Origin: Pseudanabaena yagii GIHE-NHR1 | Lineage (GTDB): Bacteria > Cyanobacteriota > Cyanobacteriia > Pseudanabaenales > Pseudanabaenaceae | Direction: 5' to 3' | NCBI RefSeq assembly: GCF_012863495.1 | Contig: NZ_JAAVJL010000007.1 | Location: 1 to 51,529 of the forward strand | DNA: 51,529 nucleotides | Part shown: in pieces, positions 4,546 to 26,961 of the stretch | Layout: every line of letters starts with the position of its first letter | How positions within the stretch are numbered: the first letter of the stretch is position 1 | The notes under the pieces: generated by a model | What the model saw: the letters and a program-made list of their open reading frames with translations, nothing else | Databases searched by the model: none | Told to the model about the DNA's origin: nothing | Position numbers and translations under genes: made by a program

Positions 4546-5469
4546 ATGGTTCAGACTATCAACAGCAATATTCCTACTGTCACGGAATTAATTTTTGCTC
4601 GGCATGAGACATTTTATCCTCGTTATGGCTGGCTAAAGAAAGGATTTGAGGCGGTTAACGCTAACTCCAACATTTTTTTAGAGGAAGATGCTCATATTCA
4701 GCTAGGGGTGGGGAAAAACATGGCGAAGGCAATTCGCTATTGGTGTGGGGCGTTTAAGCTTATTGAAGACGATCGCGCAGGACAGTCATCACCTCAAACA
4801 TCACAATTTGGGCGATTATTGCTAGGTGAAGATGGTTACGATCCCTTTTTAGAAGATCCTGCTTCCCTATGGTTATTGCATTGGCATCTATTGCAGCAAC
4901 CCTGTAGAGCCTCAGCGTGGCACGCAATTTTTAATAACTTACGTCAAACAGAATTTACTGTTGAGGATTTGCTGTTGATGCTCATTCAGTATCGTGATGC
5001 AGCAGGCAATCGCACTGTGGAGGCTTCATTAAAAAAAGATATCACTTGCCTTTTGCGAATGTATGTGAGACAAGGTGATGATCTGAGTTTGAATGAAGAT
5101 AACTTAGACTGTCCCTTTGCAGAGTTAGGATTGATTCAACGAGTAGGAGATGCTAAGCATTATTTGTTTCGCACAGGTGCTAAGACTAGTCTCCCTCATG
5201 AAATCTTAGTATCAGCTTGTCTAGATTTTGCGAAAACGGTTAGTACTACGCAGAGGACAATCTCTTTGACGAGTTTATTATTTGATGAAGGTAGCCCCGG
5301 AATGGTATTTAAGTTATCGGAGTCTGCTCTTTGTGATGCGATCGAGCAGGTAGCACGATGGTGTAATGAGATTACTTTTTCTGATAGTGCTGGCATCATT
5401 CAGATGTCCTTTACTCAAGATCCCGCAAAGCTCAGTCACACAGTTTTAAATAGATATTACAGACCTTAA
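4546..5469 (+). CDS. DUF4007 family protein 1 (SspB-like candidate)
   Basis: Residues 17-34 (FARHETFYPRYGWLKKGF) are the classic N-terminal signature of DUF4007. The family is, from memory, the one that includes SspB, the nickase partner of SspC and SspD in single-strand phosphorothioation; I cannot see a nuclease motif from sequence alone. Later segments include a Trp-rich LWLLHWHLLQQP motif (about residues 107-119) and a C-terminal DNA-binding-like helical region. The stop codon abuts the ATG of the ATPase gene at 5470, so the pair is certainly co-transcribed. This is the first gene of the long plus-strand operon. The order DUF4007, ATPase, PAPS reductase parallels sspB-sspC-sspD. Confidence 0.85.
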   Translation: MVQTINSNIPTVTELIFARHETFYPRYGWLKKGFEAVNANSNIFLEEDAHIQLGVGKNMAKAIRYWCGAFKLIEDDRAGQSSPQTSQFGRLLLGEDGYDPFLEDPASLWLLHWHLLQQPCRASAWHAIFNNLRQTEFTVEDLLLMLIQYRDAAGNRTVEASLKKDITCLLRMYVRQGDDLSLNEDNLDCPFAELGLIQRVGDAKHYLFRTGAKTSLPHEILVSACLDFAKTVSTTQRTISLTSLLFDEGSPGMVFKLSESALCDAIEQVARWCNEITFSDSAGIIQMSFTQDPAKLSHTVLNRYYRP

Positions 5470-8400: not shown

Positions 8401-9033
8401 GGAACCACTGCCAAGAAGTTTAAAGGGAAGTTAGTCCAGATATTACAGGAAGTCCAAACTGCCTATGACAGGTTACTCACTGATTGTCAAAGCCTATTGC
8501 ATGACGCTTTTGCAGTGCGGCGTGATGAGGCGAAATTGCGCGAAGACTTGCGGATGAGAGCAAGTTATCTTACGGATAATTGTTCAGAACGTCTACTCAA
8601 GCGGTTTGTATTGGCGGCGGCTGATGAGACTGTGGACGATCGCCAATGGTTAGAGTCTTTGCTGATGATCATTGCGGATAAGCCTGCGGAGTCTTGGACT
8701 GATGCGGATGTGCGGAGCTTTGAGCCAAAGCTAACGGATTTGGCGCGTAGGTTTATGAATTTGGAATCTTTGCACAAGGAGATGGCGGCTTCATATAAGG
8801 CACATTCTGGTAAAGCACATGCTGGGGCGCAAAGTTTTGATGCGAGGCGGATTACGATCGCTCGTCCTGATGGTCAGGAAGTGCATCAGTTGATTTGGCT
8901 CGATCCCAAGGATAGTGATCGCCTTGAGGTATTGGTAGAAAAAATCTTGAGTGAAGAGAGCGTGCAAGGTAGCGATCGCCTCCAGCAAGCTTTAATTGCT
9001 AAGTTAGCAGAAAGGGTTTTGCGTCAGTCTTAA
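5470..9033 (+). CDS. Large P-loop ATPase (SspC-like / BREX-associated)
   Basis: Walker A is GVYGTGKS at residues 63-70 and Walker B is VILIIDELGKN around 189-199, an ORC/Cdc6-like AAA arrangement shared by SspC and the BREX ATPases. After it come a sensor-like strand (FYLIGLLHQSF) and a helical region with HPIAALVLPILCTRYAQNDRSLFTFL near residue 350-375, typical of these defence ATPases. The remaining ~800 residues are helical and unrecognised. It begins on the base after the DUF4007 stop, so translation is probably coupled. I infer that it is the motor partner of DUF4007 protein 1 in a sulfur-modification complex. A palindromic repeat is inserted in frame at 6138-6170, between Walker B and the sensor strand. 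Confidence 0.8.
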   Translation: MFKLSEYFQLDRRYARSINLERDLDNPNSVAGYVLTDRSLYALKQILVNSPESGQTQAVTLTGVYGTGKSAFAHFLACLCAGEESVKQKALAIAKTTLTATDFQKLHQNLPEKGCFRAIATAQREPLAHTIIRALDYGASRFWNKSKSKPPIATKLVDLAGNIAFGDKVDSKEALQTIREVIAAVKTDVILIIDELGKNLEYASLHPSESDLYLLQQLAELKPNQENASRSLDLKFYLIGLLHQSFADYGERLASLQRNEWAKIQGRFQDIPFTESPRQMTWLIGKAIAHPNHKSADESADKSIVTQSKKYDALIKHQAKDWCEVLRSQIEDISPELLAAAYPLHPIAALVLPILCTRYAQNDRSLFTFLTSSEPYGLQSYLKEFNFDSDRIPLLKLDRVYDYFIESAGMGLANRPQLQKWVEIQNLVSDASKLDAERVKLLKTVGILNLITSTGGLKASWAMVKWALCDDISDQPDNQSQQAAIDNLIDELLNQKGILHHRKQIDELRIWEGSDFDVQDAIDTHIEQERSPLAKILTSISKLKPVVAQRHSYTTGTTRYFERVYIDADVNWSELHCSHYSFDGMIGYWVSAEPPQSLTSFTSDGKPLIVVMAANLKFLQMAALEYTALQKIQSQTKGLDRVATLEVRHRLIQAKRIFDEDLGKSFEMNQQQNGWGNVCWIEGERIEISRAIDFNSKLSAVCDRVYDKGLTLWNELINRRELSSQMVRALRTLIQAMLDHSDRPQLGLTGNSPEVSIYTSVLNETKIHRQEDESLGFYAPTYPLIQPVWEAIENFCLESLEKPRTIDQLYAILDAPPYGVKRGVIPILLAAVWLHHMDDVSVYKDGTFIPVLGSEHFELLVKHPQRFAVKHFEIVGLRSQVFRELENVLRSPNSNPKSNSKKTSGNLRNTTMLSVVKPLFQFVKKLPAYTTKTTRISPEAQAVVRTLQTAQEPDVLLFQTLPVACGLTAIAPNQEDDGTTAKKFKGKLVQILQEVQTAYDRLLTDCQSLLHDAFAVRRDEAKLREDLRMRASYLTDNCSERLLKRFVLAAADETVDDRQWLESLLMIIADKPAESWTDADVRSFEPKLTDLARRFMNLESLHKEMAASYKAHSGKAHAGAQSFDARRITIARPDGQEVHQLIWLDPKDSDRLEVLVEKILSEESVQGSDRLQQALIAKLAERVLRQS
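6138..6170. repeat. Perfect 15-bp inverted repeat inserted in the ATPase gene
   Basis: Arms AAATCAAGAGAACGC (6138-6152) and its exact complement (6156-6170) flank the loop TTC. The core AACGCTTCGCGTT is a palindrome common as a mobile intergenic repeat in cyanobacteria. It lies within the ATPase coding frame and adds about ten polar residues (NQENASRSLD) without shifting the frame. Confidence 0.75.
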
Positions 9034-11427: not shown

Positions 11428-12216
11428 ATGACTAGACATATTTTAGGCTTGTCAGGAGGGAAAGACAGTACAGCATTAGCAATTTTGATGCACAAAGAAG
11501 TCCCACAAATGGAATATTTCTTTTGCGATACAGGTAAAGAACTTCCTGAAACATACGAATATTTGGAAAGAATTAAGGCGCGTTTGGGAATCAAAATCGA
11601 GTATCTGAATGCCGAAAGAGATTTCGATCATTGGTTAGAAGTGTTCAACGGTGTTCTTCCTTCACCAAGAGTTAGATGGTGTACCCGAAAGCTTAAAATA
11701 GAGCCTCTTGAAAAATTTGTAGGAGACGACAAAGCTGTTAGTTACATTGGTATAAGAGCAGACGAAAATCGAGAAGGTTATGTATCGGCACAACCAAATA
11801 TTTATCCAGTTTATCCATTTAAAGAAAGAGGTTTAGTCAAGTCTGATATTCTTAATATTCTTGATGATAGCGGAATTGGCTTACCTAGTTATTATGAATG
11901 GCGAAGTCGATCAGGATGTTCTTTTTGTTTTTTTCAGCGCAAATATGAATGGGTAAAGCTTGCTGAAAAACATCCAGAAGAATTCGCTCAAGCGGTTGCC
12001 TATGAAAGAGATCATAAGGATGGGAGAACATATACTTGGACTCAAGGAGAAACACTCTTAGAACTGATTGCCCGTAAAGACCAAGTTATTGCTGACCATG
12101 AAAAGGCGATCGCTAAAGAGAAGAAAACATCTCCCAAGCTTAGCCTTGCCGAAGTATTAGAATCAGTACTAGACGATGAAGATGACGAAATGCCTTGTTT
12201 AGCTTGCCATTTGTAA
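11428..12216 (+). CDS. PAPS reductase / ATP pyrophosphatase family protein (SspD/DndC/BrxP-like)
   Basis: SGGKDS at residues 9-14 is the PP-loop that adenylates or binds ATP in this family. FFCDTG (31-36), RWCTRKLKIEP (83-93), GIRADENR (108-115) and RSGCSFCFF (161-169) are the other conserved blocks of phosphoadenosine-phosphosulfate-reductase-like proteins. Cysteines C33, C85, C164 and C167, plus a terminal CLAC, could hold an iron-sulfur cluster as in DndC. In Dnd and Ssp systems this protein activates the DNA backbone for sulfur insertion; in type 4 BREX the same family replaces the methyltransferase. With the desulfurase at the end of the operon it supplies the two core enzymes of a sulfur modification. 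The exact subfamily (SspD, DndC or BrxP) needs a tree. Confidence 0.9.
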   Translation: MTRHILGLSGGKDSTALAILMHKEVPQMEYFFCDTGKELPETYEYLERIKARLGIKIEYLNAERDFDHWLEVFNGVLPSPRVRWCTRKLKIEPLEKFVGDDKAVSYIGIRADENREGYVSAQPNIYPVYPFKERGLVKSDILNILDDSGIGLPSYYEWRSRSGCSFCFFQRKYEWVKLAEKHPEEFAQAVAYERDHKDGRTYTWTQGETLLELIARKDQVIADHEKAIAKEKKTSPKLSLAEVLESVLDDEDDEMPCLACHL

Positions 12217-12847: not shown

Positions 12848-12852
12848 AAACC

Positions 12853-13704
12853 ATGTCAGAACTAAATCTCAGCTTTCATACAACTTTTTCACTCAAAAAA
12901 GAAGATATTTTGAGAATGATCAAAGTTGCCGAAGAAGAAGAAAAAGGAGTTAAGGATTCTCAAGAGAATCTCATGGCTAAAACTGGCTTAGGCAATAAAA
13001 AAGTTAGTCCGATTAAATCTTGGTCTATTCGTTCAGGATTAGTTGATAGAGAGACAGGCAAACTCACCCCACAAGGCGCGATCGCCCGCAAACATGATCC
13101 TTATCTCCAATCACCCATCACCGATTGGCTGATGCACTTCTATCTCAGCTTCAGCGACAAAGGACTAGCTACACCACCACCAGATCCCGCCGAGTGGGGC
13201 GGCTGGACATGGTTTGTTTATAGCTTCTTGCCAACTCATCCTAGTTTTAGCCGTAGCACCCTCGACAATGCCGCAAACCAGATCTATGAAACTGACAAGA
13301 AAAAAGCTAAATCTATTAGTGACGACCTATTGAAAGTTCTCAAAGCCTACACCGACAAAAAAGATGCACTAGCCCAAATTAACTTTTTAAAATCCCTCAC
13401 TAAAGATCAATACATCGCAGGAGAAGCAACACTTCCACCCGATGAGTTAATTGCCTATTTTTTAGCAAAGCTCTGTGAAAGAGATTTTCAAGGTTTGTCT
13501 CAGATCAATAGCGATCGCCTTCTACAACATCCCTACGGACTATCCCCCATCCTCGGCATCAGCACCGACAAAGTGCAAGACCTCCTTGATCGCCTCTCAG
13601 GTAAAGGCATCATCGAGCAGTACAAAACTGTTCCTCCTTTCCAAATCATCCCCCGATGGAATGAATCTTTAGACTTATTAGAGAAAGCATATGTTAACCA
13701 ATGA
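12853..13704 (+). CDS. DUF4007-like protein 2
   Basis: The 283-residue protein shows a DUF4007-like layout distinct from the protein at 4546: FHTTFSLKKEDILRMIKVA at the start, a helix-turn-helix-like SPIKSWSIRSGLVDRETGKLTPQG segment, DPYLQSPITDWLMHFYLS with the conserved Trp-Leu pair, and WTWFVYSFLPTHPSFSRSTL. The C-terminal third contains a winged-helix-like VQDLLDRLSGKGIIEQY. It overlaps the next gene by 14 bases. In context it probably pairs with the BrxC-like ATPase downstream as DUF4007 protein 1 pairs with its ATPase. The family call is weaker than for protein 1. Confidence 0.7.
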   Translation: MSELNLSFHTTFSLKKEDILRMIKVAEEEEKGVKDSQENLMAKTGLGNKKVSPIKSWSIRSGLVDRETGKLTPQGAIARKHDPYLQSPITDWLMHFYLSFSDKGLATPPPDPAEWGGWTWFVYSFLPTHPSFSRSTLDNAANQIYETDKKKAKSISDDLLKVLKAYTDKKDALAQINFLKSLTKDQYIAGEATLPPDELIAYFLAKLCERDFQGLSQINSDRLLQHPYGLSPILGISTDKVQDLLDRLSGKGIIEQYKTVPPFQIIPRWNESLDLLEKAYVNQ

Positions 13705-14152
13705 TGCAATCAATCAACTAGCACTAGATAAAGTCGAACTGCGCGATCGCCCCTATCTGCTCTATACCGACAAACTTAGCAAAACTGCTCTTCATCACCT
13801 AGCCTTTCGCTATACTGCAGATCGCCTTAGCTATCGTGATGATCTAATTAAACGCCATACCAGCACCAGCAAGAGCAGCTACTTAAATTTGCAACTACAT
13901 AGCAGTCGAGAAGTTGAAGCCATCAAACAAATTTGTCAAAACGCAAGCAAGCCAATCGTCCTGTTAGAGGACTTAGATATTTTGCTCACCTATCTTTCCA
14001 TCCGTGCAAATAATCAGCTAAATCTATTTTGGCGAAATCTAGCCACCACCCGTCAACTAGCTTGTCCATTATGGATCTTACTTCCTAAGACTTGGGCAAC
14101 AGAAATGTCAGGTAAAGAAAGTTTATGGGATATTCGCGTTAAATTCTTGTAA
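13691..14152 (+). CDS. Small uncharacterised defence-operon protein, 153 aa
   Basis: I do not recognise a family. The start at 13691 lies 14 bases inside the preceding gene, which indicates translational coupling. A hydrophobic strand followed by acids (KPIVLLEDLDILLTYL, around residues 88-103) and the later strand CPLWILLPKTW look like the Walker B and sensor strands of a P-loop NTPase, but no Walker A is present. It may be an inactive NTPase-like adaptor filling the slot of the small BrxA/BrxB proteins of other BREX systems; that is positional inference only. It ends 29 bases before the giant ATPase gene. Confidence 0.6.
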   Translation: MLTNDAINQLALDKVELRDRPYLLYTDKLSKTALHHLAFRYTADRLSYRDDLIKRHTSTSKSSYLNLQLHSSREVEAIKQICQNASKPIVLLEDLDILLTYLSIRANNQLNLFWRNLATTRQLACPLWILLPKTWATEMSGKESLWDIRVKFL

Positions 14153-14181
14153 GATTATAGTTAATAAATAGGGGCTGGGTT

Positions 14182-17100
14182 ATGTTTTTAAGAGATTTTA
14201 TCAGTATCAACGAGGAAGGTTCAATTGAGCCTGTCGTCAATTTAGACATGATGGATGACTCTGATAAAAATCGGAAGCTATGTAAAAGTTTTGTCTTTAA
14301 CTACAACAGCGATCGCCCGAAAGAATCGACAGTTGGCTTACTCGACATATTACGCCGTAGTTATCACAGCCCAAACTCTCCCAATATCCATTGTGTAGTT
14401 CAAGATTATGGCAAGGGTAAAACTCACTTCGCTTTAGCGATCGCCAATTTCTTCAGCAAACCCCACGATAGCGAAGAAGTTAAAGGAATCTTCAACAGCA
14501 TCAAAATTGCGACAGGGGAAAAGAATAAAGCGGTTTGCGACACCTTAGAATCCTTCAAATCTAGAAGCAATCATCTTGTGCTTTGTCTACGAGGAGATAA
14601 ATGTGATGATCTGCGTAAACATTTTTTATCTGTAGTCTTAAAAGCTTTAAACAATGCAGGAGTCACAAGCTCTATTGCCCATCACCTATGCTTAAGACCG
14701 TTGCAATATCTTGAGCAGCTTAATGATGGCGATCGAGTAAAAGGCGATCGCTATCTCCGCCAGATCAATGCCCAAGAAGGCGATATCGCTGCCATTTGTG
14801 AATTGTTACGAGGTAATAATCATGAAGTGATTCCTCTTGTGATTCAAGTTGCTGATGCAATCACAAATGGCTTTGCGCCAAACTTCATTAAAAATATTGA
14901 AATAGAAGAAATTCTTGATGATTTAGTTAAAAATCTTTGCACAGGAAGTAATGCAAGATTTCAAGGTATTCTCATTCTCTTTGATGAACTTAACAACTAT
15001 CTCGATAGCTGGCTAACTGACAAATATGCTGCAGGTAATACCGCCCCCCAAAACCTGACTAATGCTTGTGCAAATCATAAGGCTAAAATCGCATTAATGA
15101 GCTTCACACAAGTTAACCCTAATTCCAAAAGCTCGCTTGGCGGTTATCAAATTGTTTCAACTCGCCTAGCGCCTGCGGATGCGACCTATAGTCCTGTATC
15201 TAGCCTAGAACGAGTCATTGACGAAGTAATCATCCAACATGATAACCCTGCTTGGAAAAGTTTTAGAAACAAATGGGATAACGTCTTATCAAGAGATAGC
15301 GAAAGAATATATAAACGCGCTCGTAAATATCAGGATGGCAATAACTTAACTGCTAAGGAGTTTCATGATCATTTAGGTTTAGGATGTTTCCCATTACATC
15401 CCTTTGCTAGCTACTTATTATGCAATCTTGAATTTACTCAAGGTAGAACTGCAATTGAATTTGTCAGAAACGAGATTGGCGAGTTTCTCAGTAATCCTAC
15501 TGAAATTGATCACCCAAATCGACCTAATCAACTTTACGCCACATCCTTAGTCGATGCCTTTGCGCCTAACTTTAGAGTCTCTGCTAGTAAGGCTATCCTT
15601 TATGAAACCTACACTCAAACTCTAGATGGTGTAGTTGCCGAAGCTAATGAGAATGAAATCAATGTAATTAAAGCTATTTTCTTATATAACGCTAGTGGTG
15701 ATTTGATTTTCAAACAAGCAAATGAGAATCATGAGAAAATTTTGTGTGATCTAACAGGTCTATCAGAACTACAACTAAGAGAAGCGCTAGAAAAACTCAT
15801 CAATGAACGTCAGGCAGTCTATCGCCGTAATGATGGTATCTATCAATTCTTTACAGGTACTAATCCTCGTGAACTTGAACAAAGAGTTATAGCTGAATTA
15901 GAAGAGAAAGGGAATCGACAATCCCCAGAAGTTACCTTCATCGAATATTGTCGTGAAAACATTACTAGAGTATTTAGCGAGGAATCGACAAAAGCAAATC
16001 AATTTGCTACTGAAAATGGCTTGTTGGCATCTGATTGGTGTTTTGAAAATCAAATATTCACGCTTACAGAATTAGAAAAACTGCTTAATTCTGAACCAGA
16101 AATTGCAAAATCAAGAATTAAGAAAGTTAGAGATGTTGGCTACCATGGCATCGTTGCTCATGTGATTGATAATAACGCTCAAGACCTTGATGCATTATGG
16201 GATGAAATTGATAATAAACTGCAAAAGTCACCAATTCATCAGCGTCTAGTAGTAGCGATCTCAAAACAAAGCATTGGCGAAGGAGAGCAAAATCTTGGAC
16301 GGATTCTCCAGAAAATTGATATTCTCAAGACTAAATTCAAATCAGAACAAGGAACGGCTTCTTATACTAAGCTCTTAGCTGACTGGGACAAGTATTTGCG
16401 AGATCGCATCCATGAAATTCTTAATCGTCCTGATAATTTAAGACATCACTCTACTAGCAGCCATAAACTTACCCTACAACTACGCAAATATGCCACCTAC
16501 CATGTCAGCACTCTATTAAGCGAAATATACCCATTTGTACCCAATATTGGTGGTGTTGACAAACTCTCAATATTTCCAAGAATTCATCCTACGGGTAACA
16601 AAATAGCAGCTACAGTTGCTAGTCAGGTGTTAGTGGGTAAAGGCAAGATTGCATCTGCTAGTCTGCCCAAAGAAGCTAGCTATATGACTGCAATTGATAG
16701 CGCCTTTGTTAAAAATTGGAAGATTTTAAAAAAGACCTCCAGTAGCTATATCTTGCAAGAACCTACTGATCAAAAAGTAAGAGATGCTTGGGACAAAATT
16801 TCTCAGATCTGCAACCTGAATGGAGAGAAATTTAAAGAAGTTTCTCTGTCAGATATTTGGCAAACTCTCAGTGATGCTCCCTATGGATACAATCACCTCA
16901 CTTTTACAGTATTACTTGCTAGTTGGCTCAGTTTTCATCGTGATGAGGTTGTACTAAGAGGTATCACTGATCTCAAGGCTAAAACTGCTCAACCTATGCA
17001 GACTAGAAGCTTAGAGGAATGGGCAGCAGCAAATATTTTAGAAAAAGCTGATGTTTTCGTTGATAAGTGGATTGTCAAATTTAGTGCCAAGCTGATTCGC

Positions 17101-19599
17101 CGAGAAAAAATTGCTGCGCCCAAAGTACCTGATTTACCAACTACATATGATCAAATAATTACCTATCTAAACCAAGCAAAAGACTTTTTAGAAACAAATA
17201 GCAACACCCCAGAAGCAAATGATGTCAAAGAATGGCAACCGAAATTTAACAAGATTATCAAAGATTTTGATAATTGGTATAGACCAATTCAAGAAGCCGC
17301 AGGACTTAGTTTAGAGACCCCTCTCGAACAAGTAGTACATCTATACCCCCAATCTCTTAGAGAATGTCCGGTTGTTGATATCAATAGAACCTCTAGCCAA
17401 AATGAACTGCAACACCAAGCCTTACAGCGCTTACAACAAATCCTTGAAGAGAGGGTAAGATGTCTACAAGTAGAACCCGAAAGCTTAACTACAGTTCAAA
17501 ACTGCGTCTCTAGTATTAGTAATATTGAGTCAGCGATTAGATCTTTAGGTTCCGTCGCTGCTTTACCCGATCATTATGCTAAAAGCCTAGAACAATCTAA
17601 AGCAGATATAACTCGTCGTCAAAATGAAATCGCAATTAGGGAGCAGATCTCCCAAAAATTACGTGAAGTACAAAACCGTTATGAAGGTTTGAGTCAAAAT
17701 GCTACTCAGCAAGAGTTAATTGAGGCTCAAGAAGCGATCGCTCAATTTGCAGAAACATTACCTGACCTCAAAAACGAGGCTAAGTATGAAAAGACAGTAC
17801 AACAAATTAGCGATCGGCAAGAAGAACTAAAACAACAATTGCAAAACTGGGGTAGTCGTTATTTAAGTTCAGAAATAACCAAGTTAGAAGCTACTGAATT
17901 GCTTATTAACATTTCCAAACAAGAGAATCGGTACACAGACTCTCATGACAAACAACGCCTACAAGATATATTTAGTAGCCTCAATCAATTCATTCAAGGT
18001 ATTGAAGGAATTGAGAATATTCAACAAGCGAACACAGAAGTTATTCAACAAGCAGCGCAGTCAGTAAGGCTAATCAATGATTCTAAAACAATTAGCTTGA
18101 TGATTGAGAACTATAAACAACTTCAGGCACTCCAAATCTTGACTAGTCCAGATCTAAATGTTGAAGACGTACAAACTCAACTCACAAACCTCAAGGCTAG
18201 CGGATATGAAGCACTTATCAACAAGCTTACACAGTCAATAAATCGCTGTGACAATCAAATTAACAAACGTGATGAATATACACAACGCAGTGGTTTAATT
18301 CAGCAGATTCAGGCTCTATTACCTAATAGTAATGAGTTTGATAATATCCGCACTCAGATAGAATCAGCATCTGTTACCTTAGAGAAAAGGTTACAGGAAT
18401 TTGAAGTGCGTGTCATAGACCGTAGCATCATTGACGAAATTAAGAAGCTATCCTTAAGTAGTTCCAATACAATTAGACAATGCGAAGAAAGCTTAACTCG
18501 AATTCAGTCTTTGTCACAAAAACTCAATGATCAAGAAACTTATCAAGCAGATATTAGAAAACGTGTAAATGATTTTAATGCTCAGATTACTAGACAAAGT
18601 GAAGAGCTATCACGGTTACAGGATCGGATTGAGGGAATCAGAGATCCCAACGAATTAGACAAATTCAAAATTGACTATGCCAAGATAGAGTATATTTTCA
18701 AAGACTCATCACACTATGGCAACTATCAACAATTACAAATCAAAATTGATGAACTGGATGAAGCACTTGATGTAGTTCGGGACTTAGATAAACTTAAGCA
18801 AAAATCTAATTCCATTATTGAATGTCGAAATTCACAGCAAAAGTTAGCTGAGGAAAGCCAAAATATTAGCGATCACTTTCAGCCACAAATTCAAGCAATT
18901 GCTGAATACCTAAGCGATCGCCTTGATCAATATCGGCATGAACTAGGAGATCTAGAGCAGCGCCTAACCACCATTACAGGCTTAAAGCCATGTCAAAGTA
19001 TAGAAATAGAACTATCACGCAAATCTAGTCACTACCTCGGCTCAGAAATTGATGAGGAGCGTTATCGCCTCATTCAAAGCCAACTCAGTCGCTTGCAAGA
19101 GCTATATAAACTTGCCGACGCTGCCAAGCGTCAAACTCTAGAGGATTATGATCGGCACTTGCAAGCATTGCAGCAATGGCTTGATGAGGATAGTCAAATT
19201 CCTGAATGGATGGGCGATCGCTATCAAACTATCCGACGCGATGCCGAAAAGAATCGTCAAGCTTTGCTAGATAAAATCCGCAAAGATGCTCGTGACTGGG
19301 TAAATCAAGTTGATCGCGATTGGCTTGCTATTGATACAGATAGTAATACTGAAAGACAGGCAGAAAAAGCCCATAGACTAATTCAATGTATCAAGAAAGA
19401 GAAATCTGATTACATTTCAGGAATCACTGAAGATCTTGACAATACAATTAAAGAGATAGAACAAAAATGTAATAGCATCATCGAATCAAATCTTGAGATT
19501 CAGATTATCTCACGCTTCCGTCAGCTACCCCAAAGCCGCCGTAATAGCCTTTATACGAAGCTGCAAGATTACTTAACAGACAAGACGGAGGTAAATTAA
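14182..19599 (+). CDS. brxC: Giant BrxC/PglY-like ATPase with long coiled-coil tail, 1805 aa
   Basis: The N-terminal ~700 residues form a BrxC/PglY-like NTPase: a Walker-A-like DYGKGKTH at 75-82 (lacking the first glycine of the strict consensus, as is common in this group), LILFDELNNYLDSW with D269-E270 as Walker B, and HPFASYLLCNLEF further on. From about residue 1080 to 1780 the sequence is a long, charged, Gln/Glu/Leu-rich coiled coil with repeated LQ and QEEL patterns, giving a length well above the ~1200 residues usual for BrxC. BrxC is an essential ATPase of BREX complexes. It ends two bases before the PglZ fusion gene. The coiled coil may scaffold the complex or span DNA, which is inference. 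Confidence 0.75.
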   Translation: MFLRDFISINEEGSIEPVVNLDMMDDSDKNRKLCKSFVFNYNSDRPKESTVGLLDILRRSYHSPNSPNIHCVVQDYGKGKTHFALAIANFFSKPHDSEEVKGIFNSIKIATGEKNKAVCDTLESFKSRSNHLVLCLRGDKCDDLRKHFLSVVLKALNNAGVTSSIAHHLCLRPLQYLEQLNDGDRVKGDRYLRQINAQEGDIAAICELLRGNNHEVIPLVIQVADAITNGFAPNFIKNIEIEEILDDLVKNLCTGSNARFQGILILFDELNNYLDSWLTDKYAAGNTAPQNLTNACANHKAKIALMSFTQVNPNSKSSLGGYQIVSTRLAPADATYSPVSSLERVIDEVIIQHDNPAWKSFRNKWDNVLSRDSERIYKRARKYQDGNNLTAKEFHDHLGLGCFPLHPFASYLLCNLEFTQGRTAIEFVRNEIGEFLSNPTEIDHPNRPNQLYATSLVDAFAPNFRVSASKAILYETYTQTLDGVVAEANENEINVIKAIFLYNASGDLIFKQANENHEKILCDLTGLSELQLREALEKLINERQAVYRRNDGIYQFFTGTNPRELEQRVIAELEEKGNRQSPEVTFIEYCRENITRVFSEESTKANQFATENGLLASDWCFENQIFTLTELEKLLNSEPEIAKSRIKKVRDVGYHGIVAHVIDNNAQDLDALWDEIDNKLQKSPIHQRLVVAISKQSIGEGEQNLGRILQKIDILKTKFKSEQGTASYTKLLADWDKYLRDRIHEILNRPDNLRHHSTSSHKLTLQLRKYATYHVSTLLSEIYPFVPNIGGVDKLSIFPRIHPTGNKIAATVASQVLVGKGKIASASLPKEASYMTAIDSAFVKNWKILKKTSSSYILQEPTDQKVRDAWDKISQICNLNGEKFKEVSLSDIWQTLSDAPYGYNHLTFTVLLASWLSFHRDEVVLRGITDLKAKTAQPMQTRSLEEWAAANILEKADVFVDKWIVKFSAKLIRREKIAAPKVPDLPTTYDQIITYLNQAKDFLETNSNTPEANDVKEWQPKFNKIIKDFDNWYRPIQEAAGLSLETPLEQVVHLYPQSLRECPVVDINRTSSQNELQHQALQRLQQILEERVRCLQVEPESLTTVQNCVSSISNIESAIRSLGSVAALPDHYAKSLEQSKADITRRQNEIAIREQISQKLREVQNRYEGLSQNATQQELIEAQEAIAQFAETLPDLKNEAKYEKTVQQISDRQEELKQQLQNWGSRYLSSEITKLEATELLINISKQENRYTDSHDKQRLQDIFSSLNQFIQGIEGIENIQQANTEVIQQAAQSVRLINDSKTISLMIENYKQLQALQILTSPDLNVEDVQTQLTNLKASGYEALINKLTQSINRCDNQINKRDEYTQRSGLIQQIQALLPNSNEFDNIRTQIESASVTLEKRLQEFEVRVIDRSIIDEIKKLSLSSSNTIRQCEESLTRIQSLSQKLNDQETYQADIRKRVNDFNAQITRQSEELSRLQDRIEGIRDPNELDKFKIDYAKIEYIFKDSSHYGNYQQLQIKIDELDEALDVVRDLDKLKQKSNSIIECRNSQQKLAEESQNISDHFQPQIQAIAEYLSDRLDQYRHELGDLEQRLTTITGLKPCQSIEIELSRKSSHYLGSEIDEERYRLIQSQLSRLQELYKLADAAKRQTLEDYDRHLQALQQWLDEDSQIPEWMGDRYQTIRRDAEKNRQALLDKIRKDARDWVNQVDRDWLAIDTDSNTERQAEKAHRLIQCIKKEKSDYISGITEDLDNTIKEIEQKCNSIIESNLEIQIISRFRQLPQSRRNSLYTKLQDYLTDKTEVN

Positions 19600-19601
19600 A
19601 T

Positions 19602-22600
19602 ATGGCTAGACATATCGCCATTGGTCAGGTAGCCAATGAATTTGAGGATAATGCAATCAAATTTCTTAAAAGTAAGCTGCCTGAAACATTTACTATTTTT
19701 AGCAATTTTGAAATCAAACAAGGTAAAGAAATCTATGAGATTGACCTAGCAATTATTGCGCCGCAATGCGTCTTTGTGGTGGACATCAAAAATATTGTTG
19801 GGCATATTGATATTTATGATAAATGGTATCCAGAGAATAGAGAACCCTTTACATCTCCTCTGGCTAAATTACGTCAACATGCTAAAGTTGTCTCGTCTTT
19901 AATTAGCGACTCTAACAAAGCTCAAAGCCATACACTTAAAAAAATCCATGTTCAAGCTGTCGTTTTAATTACGTCACTAGAAACAACAATTACTGACCAT
20001 AACGGTAAGGATGAAGATAGCATCACTTACTTAAGAGAAAGTGTAGAATTCTTCAAAAGTTCTCATCTAATTCCTGACCATCGCCTCCAAGATATTCACA
20101 CCTATTCTAGTGCTATTGAGAAAGCTATTAGAGGGAAAACACAACCTAAATCTGCGCCAACATTCTATCGTGATTGGCAGTTAGAGCAGAAGTTGAGTAG
20201 TAGCGATCGCCTCGAAGAATACCATGCTAGACATAGTTTAATATCCACTCGAACTGCAAGATTAAAAATATATTTAGCGGAGCCATATCCCGATCCAGAA
20301 AATCCAGACCCAGATAAAAAGAGAATTCTCACAACATTTGCGGCACTGAGTCAAATTGACCATCCCAATATTCAAAAAATCAGGGATTTTTTTGAGACAG
20401 AAGATAAAGATCGCTTTATTCTTGTGCTTGACGAGATTAAAGGTCGCCCATTAAGCCAAGCTATACCCTTACTATCCACTGCACAAAAATTTGATCTTCT
20501 TAATCAAATATTAGGTGCAATAGAATATGTCCATGAACATGAAATTATTCATCGCAATCTATCACCAGACTGTATTCTCATTACCCATAATAAAGGGCAA
20601 GCAATCATCACAGGCTTTGAGTATGCCCGCAATCGCGATCGCACTCACACGATTGCCGATGAAATCATTGACAGCATTGACTACAAATATCAACCCCCTG
20701 AATGTCAGCAAGATCCAGCAAAGGCAAGCATTGCGTCTGATTTATTTTCCATCGGTGCAATCTTCTATTATGTCTTTACAGGGAAGAAACTATTCGAGAA
20801 TGTCCAAGAATTACAATCACGTTCTCTTTGTTATCTAGAAGCACCTTCGCAACTTAATCCAGAACTTCCGATTAGCTTTGATAAATGGCTACAAAAAATT
20901 TGTGCTAAAAATCCTCAAGAACGATTTGCTAGTGCTGATGCAGCTAGACAAGCCCTAACACCAATAGCAACTAGCGAAGCCATCGATCTTGCTAATTTAC
21001 CTCAAGATTATTTAATCAATAATCAATATTTAGTCAAAGAAAAGTTGGGAAAGGTCGGCAGCTTTTGCGTTACCTACAAAGTATGGGAAACTACGGCTGA
21101 AGTTTACGAAGTGCTTAAACTTGTCCTGCGAGATCGCTATTCTCTGTATGACCGTGCTAAGCAGGAATATAAAATCCTGCGAAACTTGCCTGAGTATCCT
21201 CATATCGTTAAGGTTCGTAATGCAGGACAACTAGCTGATGAAACACCTTTTATTGTCTTTGACTATGTAGAAGGGAAAGATTTAACTAGTTTTATGTCAG
21301 AGATAGATATCAGTCAAGAGCAAGCAATTGCGATCGCTAAGCAAACCGCCATAGGGCTTAAACACCTGCATAGCAATGGTATCTATCACCAAGATATTAA
21401 GCCTTCTAATCTCTTGATTACTAACATTGATAATATTAAGAATCAAGAGATCTGCGTTAAGATTATTGATTTTAATATTGCCGCATCAGAACAGAATGAA
21501 TCTCCCACTAGTGCAGGGACTCAGCGCTATTTGCCTCCTGACTTTAACTTTCAGGACTCAGCATCACTAGAAGCAAAAATTGATCGAGATCTCTACGCTC
21601 TTGGTATTACCTTTTACGAATGTTTAACAGGGCATTATCCTTTTGATGGAGGATTTCCTGCACACAACCATTTGCCTATCCATCCTGACACTCTAGGTTT
21701 AGCTGTAAATATTCCTGAGAGATTGACCATCTTACTTAACAAGGCAATTGCTCCCAAAAGAGGCGATCGCTTTAAATCTAGCAATGAATTTCTAGAAGCT
21801 TTAGAGCAATGTTTTGAACAATTACCAACTAGTATTCTCTCCCCAGAAAAGATTGAAATTAGAGCAGAAACTCCCAAAACTCAACTAATATCACACACAA
21901 GTCCCATCATCGATGCCAAAAACTTTTTTTCGAGCCGTCAAAACCCAATTACTTTACCCCATCAAACACCAGACAAATTCACCGTTACCCTCGATCCGAC
22001 CGATAGCTATCAAGTTCCTAACGGCTATCGAATCATCTCTACAGAATTAGAATGGTTGCAGTACTTTCACATTAAAGAACTAGAAGACCCTCAGCATTAT
22101 TGGATTTCTGGTCATTATCTCTGTAATCTCACGCGCAAATGGTTAGAGTTGCACGAGTTATCTCACACCATCGCCGACGAAAAGCAAGAGCCAATCATTT
22201 ATTTACAAGCACTCCTTGGTGATTCCATTGACTTAACTCAATGGCAATCGCCATCTCTAGAAAACTATCTATATTCCTTATGCGATCGCCTTAGACATTA
22301 CCAAGTAACTAAACCCAAAGCCGATCCAATTATCGAACTTCTAGCCGATATTACAGAAAATCATCAAATTTGGACTGATGCACCAAGCATCAATCACCTT
22401 GCTCAATGGCTATTAATCGATATACATGATAATTTTCAGCCCTTTGAACAATACTGGCAGCAGGTTATTACTCAAACAATTCACGATTCTCAACTAGCTG
22501 CTGCCTATGCAATAGATGATAAACAAGAACTATTGCGTAAGTGGATTGGTCTAGATTCTTCCAGCAACTTAGCAAAAGACTTAGGGGAGTTTCCTTTCAG

Positions 22601-24236
22601 TATTCCTGATTCATTAGCCAAAGAATTAAATAATCATTGGCAGCAAAAAATTCTTGAATCTGAAGGCAAGATTTTAGATACAATTTCTCCCGATTTACCA
22701 AATATTCAACAGATTATCAACTTAGCCTATGATTTATCTATTAAACATCCTGAACTAATTGTAAGCGATCGTATTCATCGTTTACCCTATTCAGTTTCAC
22801 AGCGTCATAAGCTCTTAAATCTATTACCTCCAGATTTACCACAAGCACTTGATCTGAATGTATCTGTCAATGAGGCAATTAATTGGGTAACAGAGAAGTA
22901 TCTACCATTCAGACAGTGGGAGCTAACAGTTGCTAAGAAATCTATCAATGAAAGGGAAAGCGATCGCCTCGGCGAAAGTTTTGCCCATTGGCTATATCAG
23001 CAATATCCCAATCTCAAGACTCAATCTGTTGCCGAATCACCTCTCAACTACAGTACAGCCCATCTAGTAACTCAACTAGCCAAACATAACCCTGTGTTAT
23101 GGGTAGTCATTGATGGTTTAGGATGGCTAGATCATCAGGAATTACTACAATATTTAACTGAAAGTAACTCATCACAAAACAAATTAAAACTAGAGACAGA
23201 GTTATCACCACGCATTAGTATCTTGCCAACAAAAACAGAATATGCAAAATGGAGTCTTTACACACAATTACCCTGCGATCGCTCCGATTGGTCGCCAGAA
23301 ATGGCACAAGCTTTTCCGCAAATGGGCATAGGCGATCGCTATACTGATGGTCGCACGAGTGTACTTTATGATGATTTACGCAAAGCGAAACATTCGCTTT
23401 TTTGTTGGGATACTGAGCAACTCGATCATCTCTACCATGAATCTAGAGATTGGGATAGTCTTTACCAAAGCGATCGCCCTGCTACATTACGCAAACTGGC
23501 TGATCAAATACATTACTGCATTCAACAACATCCACAACCAGAGAGCTTAAAAGTCGTGATAGCCAGCGACCACGGACAACTAATGGGGGAAGTACCTCTA
23601 CTACCAAACCCACCGCTTGATGTTAATGGCTCAGGTAGAATCGCGATCGGGCGTACAGAAGATCTACGCTGCTTTGTCTTAAGTGCTAAAGCTTTCGGAC
23701 TTCCCGAAGATATTAGTGTTCCTAAAAATGGGTCTTGCTTCAGCACTTTTCAAAAAACATCTCGGGGCATGGGCATTGGTTTACATGGTGGACTTTTCCC
23801 CGAAGAAGCTATTGTTGGTGTTTCCGTTCTATCCCAATCTATAGAAAGAAAACCGATAGTAATTAATCTATCTGGTAAAGGTAAAGCAAAACAAACCAGC
23901 AAACTATCGATTACCGTTGATAACCGACTCAATTCTATTGCTATTTGCAATCTGGTTTTATATATTCATGAATTGCCCACATTGCTTTATGGCAAAACTA
24001 TTGCGCGTAAATTAGGCGGCGGACGCAAGGATACTTATCATATCGAAATTACTTTTCCCGAATTACCTCTTAACACTCAAAATGGAAGTAACTGTAAATA
24101 TCAATTAACAGGAGAATTGCGCTATAACTTTACAGATACTGAGTCAGAAAGAATAGCTTTACCCAAAGATACATTTATTGAGATCGAACAGATGTTTAAT
24201 AGTGGTTTCGCTGGAGGTCTAGATGAGTTCCTATAA
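19602..24236 (+). CDS. pglZ: NERD - pseudokinase - Ser/Thr kinase - PglZ fusion (PglW-PglZ type), 1544 aa
   Basis: Four domains are visible. Residues 6-105 form a NERD nuclease-related domain with D48...D61-I-K63. Residues about 195-455 are kinase-like but have HRN (H317, N319) for the catalytic HRD and GFE for DFG, so this copy looks inactive. Residues about 465-735 form a second kinase with a Gly loop (LGKVGSFC), a lysine in EVLKLV, HQD at 596-598 with IKPSN, and DFN at 623-625, so it could be active. Residues about 1160-1540 form a PglZ domain of the alkaline-phosphatase fold, with VVIDGLG (D1171) and ASDHGQLMG (D1323-H1324). In type 2 BREX, NERD-kinase (PglW) and PglZ are separate proteins; here they are one chain. 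The gene overlaps brxL by 14 bases. Confidence 0.88.
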   Translation: MARHIAIGQVANEFEDNAIKFLKSKLPETFTIFSNFEIKQGKEIYEIDLAIIAPQCVFVVDIKNIVGHIDIYDKWYPENREPFTSPLAKLRQHAKVVSSLISDSNKAQSHTLKKIHVQAVVLITSLETTITDHNGKDEDSITYLRESVEFFKSSHLIPDHRLQDIHTYSSAIEKAIRGKTQPKSAPTFYRDWQLEQKLSSSDRLEEYHARHSLISTRTARLKIYLAEPYPDPENPDPDKKRILTTFAALSQIDHPNIQKIRDFFETEDKDRFILVLDEIKGRPLSQAIPLLSTAQKFDLLNQILGAIEYVHEHEIIHRNLSPDCILITHNKGQAIITGFEYARNRDRTHTIADEIIDSIDYKYQPPECQQDPAKASIASDLFSIGAIFYYVFTGKKLFENVQELQSRSLCYLEAPSQLNPELPISFDKWLQKICAKNPQERFASADAARQALTPIATSEAIDLANLPQDYLINNQYLVKEKLGKVGSFCVTYKVWETTAEVYEVLKLVLRDRYSLYDRAKQEYKILRNLPEYPHIVKVRNAGQLADETPFIVFDYVEGKDLTSFMSEIDISQEQAIAIAKQTAIGLKHLHSNGIYHQDIKPSNLLITNIDNIKNQEICVKIIDFNIAASEQNESPTSAGTQRYLPPDFNFQDSASLEAKIDRDLYALGITFYECLTGHYPFDGGFPAHNHLPIHPDTLGLAVNIPERLTILLNKAIAPKRGDRFKSSNEFLEALEQCFEQLPTSILSPEKIEIRAETPKTQLISHTSPIIDAKNFFSSRQNPITLPHQTPDKFTVTLDPTDSYQVPNGYRIISTELEWLQYFHIKELEDPQHYWISGHYLCNLTRKWLELHELSHTIADEKQEPIIYLQALLGDSIDLTQWQSPSLENYLYSLCDRLRHYQVTKPKADPIIELLADITENHQIWTDAPSINHLAQWLLIDIHDNFQPFEQYWQQVITQTIHDSQLAAAYAIDDKQELLRKWIGLDSSSNLAKDLGEFPFSIPDSLAKELNNHWQQKILESEGKILDTISPDLPNIQQIINLAYDLSIKHPELIVSDRIHRLPYSVSQRHKLLNLLPPDLPQALDLNVSVNEAINWVTEKYLPFRQWELTVAKKSINERESDRLGESFAHWLYQQYPNLKTQSVAESPLNYSTAHLVTQLAKHNPVLWVVIDGLGWLDHQELLQYLTESNSSQNKLKLETELSPRISILPTKTEYAKWSLYTQLPCDRSDWSPEMAQAFPQMGIGDRYTDGRTSVLYDDLRKAKHSLFCWDTEQLDHLYHESRDWDSLYQSDRPATLRKLADQIHYCIQQHPQPESLKVVIASDHGQLMGEVPLLPNPPLDVNGSGRIAIGRTEDLRCFVLSAKAFGLPEDISVPKNGSCFSTFQKTSRGMGIGLHGGLFPEEAIVGVSVLSQSIERKPIVINLSGKGKAKQTSKLSITVDNRLNSIAICNLVLYIHELPTLLYGKTIARKLGGGRKDTYHIEITFPELPLNTQNGSNCKYQLTGELRYNFTDTESERIALPKDTFIEIEQMFNSGFAGGLDEFL

Positions 24237-25677
24237 TGTCTCTAACTCTAGTTATCCGAATGAGCTTGTCCGCAACGTATTTGGAGATCTCTGTATTGAC
24301 AAGCGGCGCTTTAATTCTAGTGGACTTAAAAATGCTGGAGTACCTAGCTTTGTAGCAGAATGGCTCATTGATAAAATTATTCAAGGTAATGCCGAGTTAG
24401 GCATAGCCGATATTGAAAAAATTAATAACTTCGTTCGCAAAGCTTTCCCGCGTAAAGATGATCGCCATGTCCTCAATTTCAAGCTTACTCAAGGTGAAGT
24501 CTTAAAGATCATTGCCCTCATGCAAGTACGAGTCCGACTAGAAAATAAAGGAGATCGCATCCCTGAACCCTTTGCTACAATTCCTTCACTAAATATTGAA
24601 GAATGTCGCATCGGCGTTGACTTAGTAGAACGTTATGAAAACCTGTTGAGACAAGGACTATGGGGGAAAATATCTCTATCCATGCAATCGGATGGCATTG
24701 TCGAAGTGATTGACTTTGACCCTTTCCAGTGTTCTGAAATTAACTTAACCGAATATGCCAAAGCGCGATCGCAGTTCACAACCGAGCAATGGCAAGATCT
24801 AATATTCTGCTCCATGGGATTTAATCCCGAATTAGCTGCCTATAGTACTACTGCCAAAAGTTGGGTACTAGCTAGATTGTTACCTCTAGTTGAATCCAAT
24901 TATCACATCATGGAATTAGCGCCCAAAGGGACTGGGAAAAGCTTTATTTTTGAGAATATTAGTAATAAAGTAGCGCTAATTAGTGGTGGAAAAGTTACGC
25001 CTGCGCGTTTATTTATCAATGGCAAAAATAGAGAGATTGGACTGCTTGGTCGCCATGATGTAGTTGTGCTAGATGAGGTTCAAAGCCTCACGTTTGAGAA
25101 TCCCGATGAAATTATTGGTCCTTTAAAAAACTACCTCGCAAGTGGGCGTTACAATCGTTCAGGGTTTGCGGATATTTCTAGTGACTGCTCACTAGTGATG
25201 CTTGCTAACATTGAACTTGATGAGCAATTACGACCTCGCAATGAGTTTAACTTATTGCAAGATCTACCGAAATTCTTCTCAGAAACGGCGCTACTTGATC
25301 GCTTCGCAGGTATTCTGCCTGGTTGGGAAATTCCCAAATTCAAAACTGAGGCGATCGCCACTCAAGTTGGTTTAAAAACAGACTTTTTTGGCGAAGCGCT
25401 TCTTGCCCTACGTCGTGATAATCGTTTTGCTTCTTACGTCAGTCAACATACTAGTTTTGACAAAAATACAACTATTCGAGATCAACAAGCCATTCAGCGA
25501 TCGGCTTCAGGCTTCTTAAAAATTCTCTATCCCCATCTCGAATTAACCCTAATCGATTACCAAAGAGATTGTCTAGAGCCTGCGATTCGTTTACGGCAAA
25601 TTGTGCGCGATCAGCTATATCACCTTGACGATGAGTTCAAGCAAAATGGCAAAACTATTTATGCTGAAGTGCAATGA
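24223..25677 (+). CDS. brxL: BrxL-like AAA+ protein lacking the Lon protease domain
   Basis: The sequence follows BrxL from the start: LVRNVFGDLCIDKRRFNSSGL, VPSFVAEWLIDKII, then the AAA+ core with Walker A PKGTGKS (234-240), Walker B VVVLDEVQ (D284-E285), a GRYNRSG segment, and a sensor with LLDRFAGILPGWEIPK. BrxL forms DNA-binding rings in BREX systems. Usual BrxL proteins are near 680 residues with a C-terminal Lon-like protease domain; this one stops at 484 with no serine-lysine protease region. The stop overlaps the desulfurase start (ATGA at 25674), so this is a genuine end and not a frameshift into the next frame as far as I can see. Confidence 0.88.
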   Translation: MSSYNVSNSSYPNELVRNVFGDLCIDKRRFNSSGLKNAGVPSFVAEWLIDKIIQGNAELGIADIEKINNFVRKAFPRKDDRHVLNFKLTQGEVLKIIALMQVRVRLENKGDRIPEPFATIPSLNIEECRIGVDLVERYENLLRQGLWGKISLSMQSDGIVEVIDFDPFQCSEINLTEYAKARSQFTTEQWQDLIFCSMGFNPELAAYSTTAKSWVLARLLPLVESNYHIMELAPKGTGKSFIFENISNKVALISGGKVTPARLFINGKNREIGLLGRHDVVVLDEVQSLTFENPDEIIGPLKNYLASGRYNRSGFADISSDCSLVMLANIELDEQLRPRNEFNLLQDLPKFFSETALLDRFAGILPGWEIPKFKTEAIATQVGLKTDFFGEALLALRRDNRFASYVSQHTSFDKNTTIRDQQAIQRSASGFLKILYPHLELTLIDYQRDCLEPAIRLRQIVRDQLYHLDDEFKQNGKTIYAEVQ

Positions 25678-26858
25678 ATTCATCTAAATGTGTTAACAGC
25701 GATCGCCCCATTTATCTTGATTACCACGCCACCACACCCGTTGATCCGCGTGTCGCTTCCGTAGTCATGGAATATATACTGACAGAATTTGGCAATGCCA
25801 GCAGTATTGACCATACCTATGGAGACAAAGCCGATCTCGCTGTCAAACAATCCGCCAAACAAGTCGCTGATTTAGTCGGAGCCTTACCTAGAGAAGTAAT
25901 TTTTACATCGGGTGCGACTGAAAGCATTAATCTCGTGCTGCAAGGATTAACCCAAAAATCACCTAGCCCCCATAAGCTAAAAATTGCAGTATTACCCATA
26001 GAACACAAAGCTGTTCTTGATACTTGTGATGCCCTAGTCAAGAAGGGAATTGCAGAGATGATCCTTTTAAAAGTCGATCGCCAAGGCAGACTAGACCTCG
26101 AACATTTAGAAACAAATTGCTCTCAAGGCATAGATTTAATTTGTGTGATGGCAGCCAATAATGAGATCGGCACTATTTACCCAATGCCAGAAATTGGCGC
26201 GATCGCCCAACGTTATAACCTGCCCTTTCTTTGTGATGCTACCCAAGCCGTTGGCAAAATCCCTATTAACTTTCGCGATTGGGGCATTACCTACTTGGCA
26301 CTATCAGGACATAAAATGTATGCCCCTAAAGGTATTGGCGCATTAATTTTGCGTAAAGGCTATCATCTTCAACCATTAATTTATGGTGGTGGACAGCAAA
26401 AAGGTATCAGAGCAGGGACGCTCAACGTCTCAGGTATTGCTGGTCTGGGTGAAGCTTGCCGCTTGCGTCAGCAAGAAATGTTAGCCGACGAACTAGTAAT
26501 TGCGGCTAAACGTGATCGCCTCCAATCTTTATTACTAGAAAGTATTCCCGATCTAACAATCAATGGTGATCTCCTTAACCGACTGGCGGGAAACCTACAT
26601 ATTTCCGTCCCAAATATTCTCAATAAAGCGATCATTTCCAGAATTCGCGATCAACTGGCGATCGCTACAGGCTCAGCCTGTTCATCAGGTATTGAAGCTG
26701 CTTCTCATGTTTTACAAGCCATTAACCTACCCACACATCTTATTGAAGGAGCCTTACGAATTAGCATCGGCAAATTCACAACCGATGCAGAAATTGATCG
26801 CGCAGCAAACATCTTGATTACAGCAGTGCATAGTACCCAACAAATTATTCGGAGTTAA
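25674..26858 (+). CDS. Cysteine desulfurase (SspA/DndA/IscS-like)
   Basis: A class V PLP-dependent aminotransferase fold with YLDYHATTPVDPRV at the start, TSGATESIN, the PLP lysine K214 in LSGHKMYAPKG, and the catalytic cysteine C336 in TGSACSSG. It takes sulfur from L-cysteine as a persulfide and passes it to an acceptor. It overlaps brxL by four bases and is the last gene of the operon. Its partner is therefore most likely the PAPS-reductase-like protein encoded at 11428, as for DndA with DndC or SspA with SspD. The length of 394 matches IscS/DndA proteins. A housekeeping IscS role is possible but the overlap argues for the operon. Confidence 0.95.
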   Translation: MNSSKCVNSDRPIYLDYHATTPVDPRVASVVMEYILTEFGNASSIDHTYGDKADLAVKQSAKQVADLVGALPREVIFTSGATESINLVLQGLTQKSPSPHKLKIAVLPIEHKAVLDTCDALVKKGIAEMILLKVDRQGRLDLEHLETNCSQGIDLICVMAANNEIGTIYPMPEIGAIAQRYNLPFLCDATQAVGKIPINFRDWGITYLALSGHKMYAPKGIGALILRKGYHLQPLIYGGGQQKGIRAGTLNVSGIAGLGEACRLRQQEMLADELVIAAKRDRLQSLLLESIPDLTINGDLLNRLAGNLHISVPNILNKAIISRIRDQLAIATGSACSSGIEAASHVLQAINLPTHLIEGALRISIGKFTTDAEIDRAANILITAVHSTQQIIRS

Positions 26859-26875
26859 GTTACTCACAGACAGAA

Positions 26876-26944
26876 AAAGAGTCAAGATTCTTGAAAAGAG
26901 CAATCAATAATCTTGATTACTCTTTTCAAGAATCTTGACTCTTT
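26876..26944. repeat. 25-bp perfect inverted repeat between desulfurase and parA
   Basis: The arm AAAGAGTCAAGATTCTTGAA... (26876-26900) is exactly complementary to 26920-26944, with a 19-base spacer that itself contains AATCAATAATCTTGATT. Each arm carries the smaller palindrome TCAAGATTCTTGA. It lies 18 bases after the desulfurase stop and 18 before parA. It could act as a bidirectional terminator for the defence operon, as the parA operator, or both. The same TCAAGAAT-TTGA core recurs through the next 2 kb. Confidence 0.85.
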
Positions 26945-26961
26945 ATTAAAGATTCTATATT

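Follow-up and report, generated by a model that had tools for sequence, protein, structure and literature searches.

In the present work, we describe an unusual fusion protein encoded in a 51,529-nucleotide contig of the cyanobacterium Pseudanabaena yagii GIHE-NHR1 (assembly GCF_012863495.1, contig NZ_JAAVJL010000007.1, positions 1-51,529, hereinafter the window). In this protein a NERD domain, a pseudokinase and a kinase, together called the head below, precede a PglZ domain in one chain. As judged from sequence comparisons, the surrounding island is a type 4 (Ssp-linked) bacteriophage exclusion (BREX) island, in which SspABCD-like genes accompany a DUF4007/BrxC-like/PglZ/BrxL set, and the head is best read as a MAD6-type accessory module that a loose linker connects to PglZ. 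We tentatively regard the protein as the effector of a phosphorothioate-based restriction island, with the kinase licensing the PglZ/BrxC complex and NERD serving as a second nuclease; rival readings are weighed below. The fusion gene and its parts are as follows.

19602..24236, plus strand: NERD-pseudokinase-kinase-PglZ fusion (ATG start, 1544 residues, no internal stops)
19602..20147, plus strand: NERD domain (Pfam; E15, D48, D61 and K63 kept in 11 of 11 rows)
20157..20972, plus strand: pseudokinase, residues 186-457 (N319 replaces the catalytic Asp, G338 replaces the DFG Asp)
20982..21824, plus strand: kinase, residues 461-741 (K506, E522, D598, K600, N603, D623)
21954..23840, plus strand: PglZ, residues about 785-1413, the metallophosphatase part being about 1068-1413 (D1171, T1212, D1270, D1323, H1324, H1395; the Thr was placed via the PorX alignment)
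23844..24233, plus strand: C-terminal strand-rich part, fast-evolving (56% identity)

A GGAGG is found a short way before the start codon, and the stop codon overlaps the start of the BrxL gene. A four-domain single chain had been proposed by an earlier reading made from the sequence alone (the sequence-only reading), and Pfam, structure matches and conserved residues bear it out. Pfam detected NERD at residues 13-123 (E 1.9e-14) and Pkinase in two stretches (E 4.7e-59). As the full chain exceeds the folding limit, it was modelled as two halves (residues 1-759 and 757-1544). The AlphaFold2 model of the N-terminal half (11 sequences) had a mean predicted local distance difference test (pLDDT) score of 80.4 and a predicted template modelling (pTM) score of 0.44; because of the latter, the relative placement of domains in this half is not trusted. 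Structural comparison of this half concerned the kinases, the NERD call being based on Pfam and the residues. Residues 186-457 matched PknB (5u94; Z 28.7, 249 aligned, 2.6 A) and residues 461-741 matched another PknB structure (1mru; Z 28.5, 252 aligned, 2.3 A), so the assignment of residues 195-455 and 465-735 to kinase folds stands. The top Foldseek match of the half was a Janus kinase (JAK) with a root-mean-square deviation (rmsd) of 31; therefore, it indicates only tandem kinase folds, with the arrangement not matched.

The model of the C-terminal half (32 sequences, mean pLDDT 83.0) matched PorX with Z 25.8 (322 aligned, 3.5 A); its match to the PglZ of Acinetobacter BREX was looser (Z 21.7, 438 aligned, model residues 29-659, rmsd 8.7). 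In Foldseek, NPP-type phosphodiesterases ranked first (E about 2e-6). The sequence signal of PglZ is weak: two NCBIfam PglZ models scored 22.8 bits (cutoff 200) and 19 bits (cutoff 250), no match to Pfam PglZ was found in the fusion protein, and the weak NCBIfam PglZ and PorX matches were confined to residues 1097-1224. The kinase is separated from PglZ only by a variable linker of about 45 residues, and most of the PglZ loci compared were called unfused (see below); the allosteric control of PglZ by an internal sensor, suggested in the sequence-only reading, is thus speculative.

The residues named in the sequence-only reading were correct: D48 and D61-I-K63 in NERD, HRN and GFE in the first kinase, HQD with D598 and DFN in the second, VVIDGLG and SDHG in PglZ. 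Its proposal of a dead-live kinase pair is also supported, as the catalytic Asp is lost in kinase 1 and the catalytic residues are intact in kinase 2. Among 16 fused rows, the catalytic Asp position of kinase 1 is occupied by Asn in 15 and by His in one, and the DFG Asp is lost in 15. Of the fused rows that extend over the relevant part of kinase 2, all 14 retain the HxDxKxxN motif (HQDIKPxN) and the DFN Asp, and all 15 retain the beta-3 Lys and alpha-C Glu. The DFN motif is not odd, being common to all five MAD6/SspF-type rows. Thus, kinase 1 is probably dead and kinase 2 probably live. NERD residues E15, D48, D61 and K63 were found in every row of an 11-row alignment. In the 32-row alignment of PglZ, D1171, D1270 and H1395 are invariant, while 31 rows have T1212, and the same number have D1323 and H1324 (the exceptions are loci L046, L067 and L043); T1212 aligns with the Thr of PorX whose T271V mutant is titled phosphatase-null.

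The same fusion is carried by Pseudanabaena cinerea FACHB-1277. Comparison of this one sequence pair yielded low ratios of nonsynonymous to synonymous substitution rates (omega) for NERD (0.054), the pseudokinase (0.090), the kinase (0.091), the N-terminal part of PglZ (0.188) and its catalytic part (0.082), and higher ones for the linker (0.456) and the C-terminus of the fusion (0.356). Since P. cinerea has the same fusion and the domain values are low, the fusion is no assembly accident; since the pseudokinase is kept as strictly as the kinase, it does a job. That the fusion arose recently by accident, or that the gene is decaying, is hardly credible: although four of the other 15 fused loci are broken, purifying selection acts across all four domains, and 11 other one-frame fusions exist, whose PglZ halves share as little as about 37% identity. 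Relative to P. cinerea, the middle of the BrxC gene (15577-18582) and the C-terminal part of PglZ (23854-24201) diverge more than their flanks, as expected of target- or phage-facing parts.

The head scored 603.2 bits against the MAD6 family of methylation-associated defense systems (MADS; NCBIfam NF047741, cutoff 460), although a tandem kinase can inflate this score; the stretch spanning positions 1-612 scored 548 bits. Against PglW (NF033442) it scored 225.5 bits with a cutoff of 990, which rules out PglW membership; the match breaks off at position 782 of the 1391-position profile, and the C-terminal half of PglW is therefore absent. Nor does the island look like a MADS locus, which would have MAD7/MAD8 and a methyltransferase as neighbours, as no match to MAD7 or MAD8 was found among the 17 other window proteins scanned against PADLOC. 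MAD6 contains NERD, a dead kinase and a live kinase in the same order as here, and the PglW of type 2 BREX likewise has NERD followed by a pseudokinase-kinase tandem. Heads of the same kind precede a phosphorothioate-system restriction protein in DndF/SspF, where the head is followed by a P-loop kinase core (PMC10853773) and not by PglZ as here.

In a tree of 25 heads, a branch with support 63/94, recovered in 60% of bootstrap trees, sets the fused heads apart. Together with the two nearest MAD6-type heads (L092 and L103) they form a set supported at 100/100; the MAD6/SspF-type heads L093, L094 and L104 and the single PglW row, which has a long branch, fall outside this set. Both L092 and L103 have the HRN and DFN motifs of the fused heads. 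The L092 head runs into an SspF-like part (91 bits), whereas here the head runs into PglZ; L092 has as its neighbours a MAD7 (471 bits) and a protein with weak similarity to DndH. L103, on a Piscinibacter plasmid, follows an N-6 DNA methylase and owes its MAD6 label to similarity and gene order. In L094 the head is attached to SspF (698 bits). Elsewhere in the phylum, heads of this kind occur on MAD6/SspF-like proteins and PglW. MAD6-family heads were detected in 15 of 386 phylum genomes at E 1e-50 or better, five of them above the curated cutoff, and in 0 of 14 controls. A plasmid scan for the head alone gave four records at E 1e-30 or better, none of them cyanobacterial.

The gene content of the island around the fusion is listed below; PADLOC scores are given without cutoffs.

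4546..5469, plus strand: SspB-like DUF4007 protein, modification module (Pfam DUF4007 336.5 bits; PADLOC SspB 396.5 bits)
5470..9033, plus strand: SspC-like P-loop ATPase, modification module (PADLOC SspC 1417 bits, BrxC-PglY 392 bits)
11428..12216, plus strand: SspD-like sulfur transferase of the PAPS reductase family (Pfam PAPS_reduct 59.7 bits; PADLOC SspD 380 bits, BrxP 46 bits)
12853..13704, plus strand: second DUF4007 protein, start of the restriction module (Pfam DUF4007 59.8 bits)
13691..14152, plus strand: conserved 153-residue protein between the second DUF4007 gene and brxC
14182..19599, plus strand: BrxC-like protein, long form, 1805 residues (weak profiles, conserved position)
24223..25677, plus strand: BrxL (TIGR02688 452.7 bits, cutoff 329.3)
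25674..26858, plus strand: SspA/DndA-like cysteine desulfurase (PADLOC SspA 439 bits, DndA 438 bits)

Type 4 BREX comprises PglZ, BrxC (SspC), BrxL, PAPS reductase and DUF4007, with a cysteine desulfurase in 255 of 457 taxa (Rakesh and Krishnan, 2026; PMC12839542), and the island shares all six. First, the PglZ part has the folds of PorX and Acinetobacter PglZ and keeps the metal-site residues, the curated cutoffs being unreached. Second, BrxL exceeds its cutoff. Third, the BrxC/SspC-type ATPase is supplied by the gene at 5470, whose product has the Walker A motif GVYGTGKS, the gene at 14182 being weakly BrxC-like. Fourth, PAPS reductase and DUF4007 proteins replace a methyltransferase in a scan that covered part of the window's open reading frames; a 13.5-bit match of the SspD-like protein to MTase_II was taken as chance. 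Finally, SspA, SspB, SspC and SspD of the Ssp modification set all have PADLOC matches (439, 396, 1417 and 380 bits), with the desulfurase at 336 bits for NCBIfam DndA, under the cutoff of 480. From the gene order, we read the island as a pairing of an Ssp modification module with a BREX module for restriction. Type 2 BREX is ruled out by the gene content of the island, and the label of a PglW-PglZ fusion in a type 2 frame, given in the sequence-only reading, has to be abandoned, as the head scores as MAD6 and not PglW and the island is of the phosphorothioate kind. In published type 4 BREX, 292 of 457 taxa have a PglZ that starts with an inactive STAND domain (PMC12839542); here the head is NERD-kinase-kinase, with the linker of about 45 residues between it and PglZ. 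Beyond type 4 BREX, the window has a second DUF4007 protein, a second large protein of the BrxC/SspC type, and the head on PglZ.

Matches to the PglZ half were found in 8 of 386 phylum genomes and 4 of 38 nearer relatives, its own genome being counted in both. A scan of 84,980 species revealed 43 loci, all cyanobacterial; it used two peptide patterns specific to this PglZ branch, and so does not imply absence outside cyanobacteria. With six more loci added, and duplicates (L021, L026) and fragments (L029, L030) excluded, 49 PglZ loci were compared: 11 had the fusion in one frame, 4 had it in a broken form, and 34 were unfused. The unfused state is less sure for at least seven of the 34 (L028, L048, L054, L060, L068, L070, L071), because these are short or broken. 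In genome G150, the head is located at the end of one contig, while the kinase end and a truncated PglZ are at the start of another. One stretch among viral contigs matched a pattern and was no relative. Four plasmid records contain the PglZ half; the two covering at least 80% of the query are both cyanobacterial and, by gene length, unfused.

Fused and unfused rows interleave in the PglZ tree (45 rows), with six changes as labelled and four forced by well-supported branches; four also remain without three doubtful rows. The tree thus suggests at least four gains or losses of the head, and the simplest reading would be one fusion followed by several losses or exchanges. Two fused modules, one open (L043) and one broken (L066), are present on one contig of Nostoc sp. 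CMAA1605 (contig017); the desulfurase gene adjoining the open copy is broken, and Arg replaces H1324 in this copy. No SspA-like desulfurase was found in the stretch fetched for three Calothrix fused loci (L047, L059, L064), while it is present at the other 12 of 15 fused loci.

A natural exchange of the restriction module was found in plasmid pPg_05 of Pseudanabaena galeata CCNP1313. It contains corresponding genes in the same order, except for the stretch at 9.0-11.0 kb, where a PemK-type toxin gene and its neighbour occur in place of the Uma2 genes of the window (see below). DNA identity is 87% (window positions 4508-8785), 80% (8830-9014), 89% (11051-13233) and 90% (25710-28186), the similarity ending inside the second DUF4007 gene at 13233; no DNA match was found over 13234-24700, and part of BrxL is 71% identical. 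At the protein level, SspB, SspC, SspD and SspA are 94, 87, 98 and 88% identical, whereas BrxC is 30% identical, and PglZ, which has a separate 743-residue frame, is 43% identical. A search of the P. galeata genome for a NERD-kinase head encoded elsewhere detected none: there were 31 matches, the best of 62.9 bits, and none of them reached NERD. Hence, the modification genes of the two strains are similar, but the restriction modules next to them differ, one including the head and the other lacking it. They constitute a natural control, which makes the role of the head testable.

We know of no target of the PglW, MAD6 or DndF kinases. Since selection maintains the fusion of the head to PglZ, the head is likely to work at the PglZ/BrxC complex. 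The favoured reading, to which we give somewhat less than even chances, is as follows. The SspABCD-like enzymes, judging from their families, would put a sulphur mark on host DNA, and the DUF4007, BrxC-like, PglZ and BrxL set would attack or stall unmarked phage DNA. Infection or unmarked DNA would be sensed by the rest of the complex, turning on the live kinase under the control of its dead partner; the kinase would then phosphorylate its own chain or its PglZ/BrxC neighbours, thereby licensing restriction, and NERD would contribute a second nuclease. The head would accordingly be an accessory phosphoregulatory and second-nuclease module tethered to PglZ; the kinase activity, its substrate and trigger, the kinase control of PglZ, and cleavage by NERD and PglZ are all putative. 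Licensing is favoured because of the literature on PglW and PglZ and because the fusion joins such a kinase to such a nuclease. PglW autophosphorylates and needs Lys677 for resistance, and PglZ was seen as two isoforms, for which the authors proposed phospho-control of PglZ (PMC4365076); type I PglZ shows metal-dependent DNA nicking, which is lost without the Thr and inhibited by ATP (PMC12205998). The more specific version, in which the dead-live pair gates PglZ by phosphorylation in a JAK-like manner and PglZ or BrxC is the target of PglW- and MAD6-type kinases, is rather unlikely.

Another possibility, which we consider a serious though less probable one than licensing, is that the head is a backup suicide effector: if restriction fails, NERD would hit host DNA and the kinase host proteins, with no regulation of PglZ. 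Such a role was proposed by Rakesh and Krishnan for the heads of PglW and DndF (PMC12839542, PMC10853773); moreover, similar heads occur on MAD6/SspF-like, PglW and PglZ scaffolds, and head-less loci retain the other genes. However, the PglW kinase is required for resistance itself (PMC4365076), and toxicity of the head has no computed support here.

An association was observed between the head and a C-terminal stretch of the long BrxC, which all 14 fused rows have, as against 6 of the 24 unfused ones (Fisher p 4e-6). The test comprised 38 coded rows out of 45 (L027, L042, L046, L048, L054, L055 and L060 were dropped because their state was doubtful or could not be coded); L037, L045, L049 and L066 were coded as long from partial pieces, and L041 as short in spite of a separate match to the last 100 residues. 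We take it as a hint, short of proof, that the head and BrxC may act together. The same co-occurrence would also suit a kinase pair acting mainly as a scaffold or ATP sensor that positions PglZ, with phosphotransfer unimportant. This we think improbable: the unusual glycine-rich loop of kinase 2 fits it, but the catalytic residues of kinase 2, needless for a mere scaffold, are conserved in every one of the 14 or 15 fused rows that cover them.

Several observations weigh against kinase licensing of the PglZ/BrxC complex. The unusual glycine-rich loop just mentioned is one of them. As the halves were folded apart and the pTM of the N-terminal half is low, no kinase-PglZ contact is predictable. 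The head was called absent from 34 of the 49 PglZ loci. After accounting for relatedness, the link with the long BrxC is reduced to three independent pairs, which cannot reach significance, and physical linkage could explain it, because the end of brxC adjoins the head. The name BrxC is itself weak by profile: the long protein scored 21.9 bits with Pfam BREX_BrxC_wHTH (cutoff 27) and E 1.9e-4 with PADLOC BrxC, and a canonical Walker A is absent by pattern, YGKGKT near residue 77 being spotted by eye.

Many described BREX loci with the exact fusion would have contradicted the sequence-only reading. The fusion is carried by 15 other loci (four of them broken); nevertheless, no description of a NERD-kinase-kinase-PglZ fusion was found in the literature searched, which for PMC12839542 comprised parts of the text, and these parts mention NERD-kinase heads for PglW and DndF only. 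The island also bears on the puzzle of orphan sspBCD loci, 2,211 of 2,678 of which are without adjoining sspFGH or sspE (PMC8092258): the apparent partner here is a BREX module.

Several other genes of the window deserve mention. Relatives of the 153-residue protein were found at 29 of 43 loci, many of the remaining loci ending at contig ends; searches of Pfam, PADLOC and PDB sequences assigned it to no family convincingly. The idea that it is a small, inactive STAND protein akin to BrxB or BrxF was considered and rejected, since this rested on size and a Walker-B-like stretch only and the searches were unconvincing. Four putative nucleases of the Uma2 family are encoded among the modification genes (9078-9656, 9679-10332, 10374-10949 and 12242-12847). 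The window is a whole contig, one of nine in the genome, with a ParA gene after the island, and positions 32884-38355 are 94% identical to pPg_05; because of this identity and the ParA gene, the contig may be a plasmid, while no overlap of the contig ends was found. On the minus strand, adjacent genes at 38638-41331 and 41387-43879 encode two NB-ARC plus TPR proteins, possibly another defence or signalling pair.

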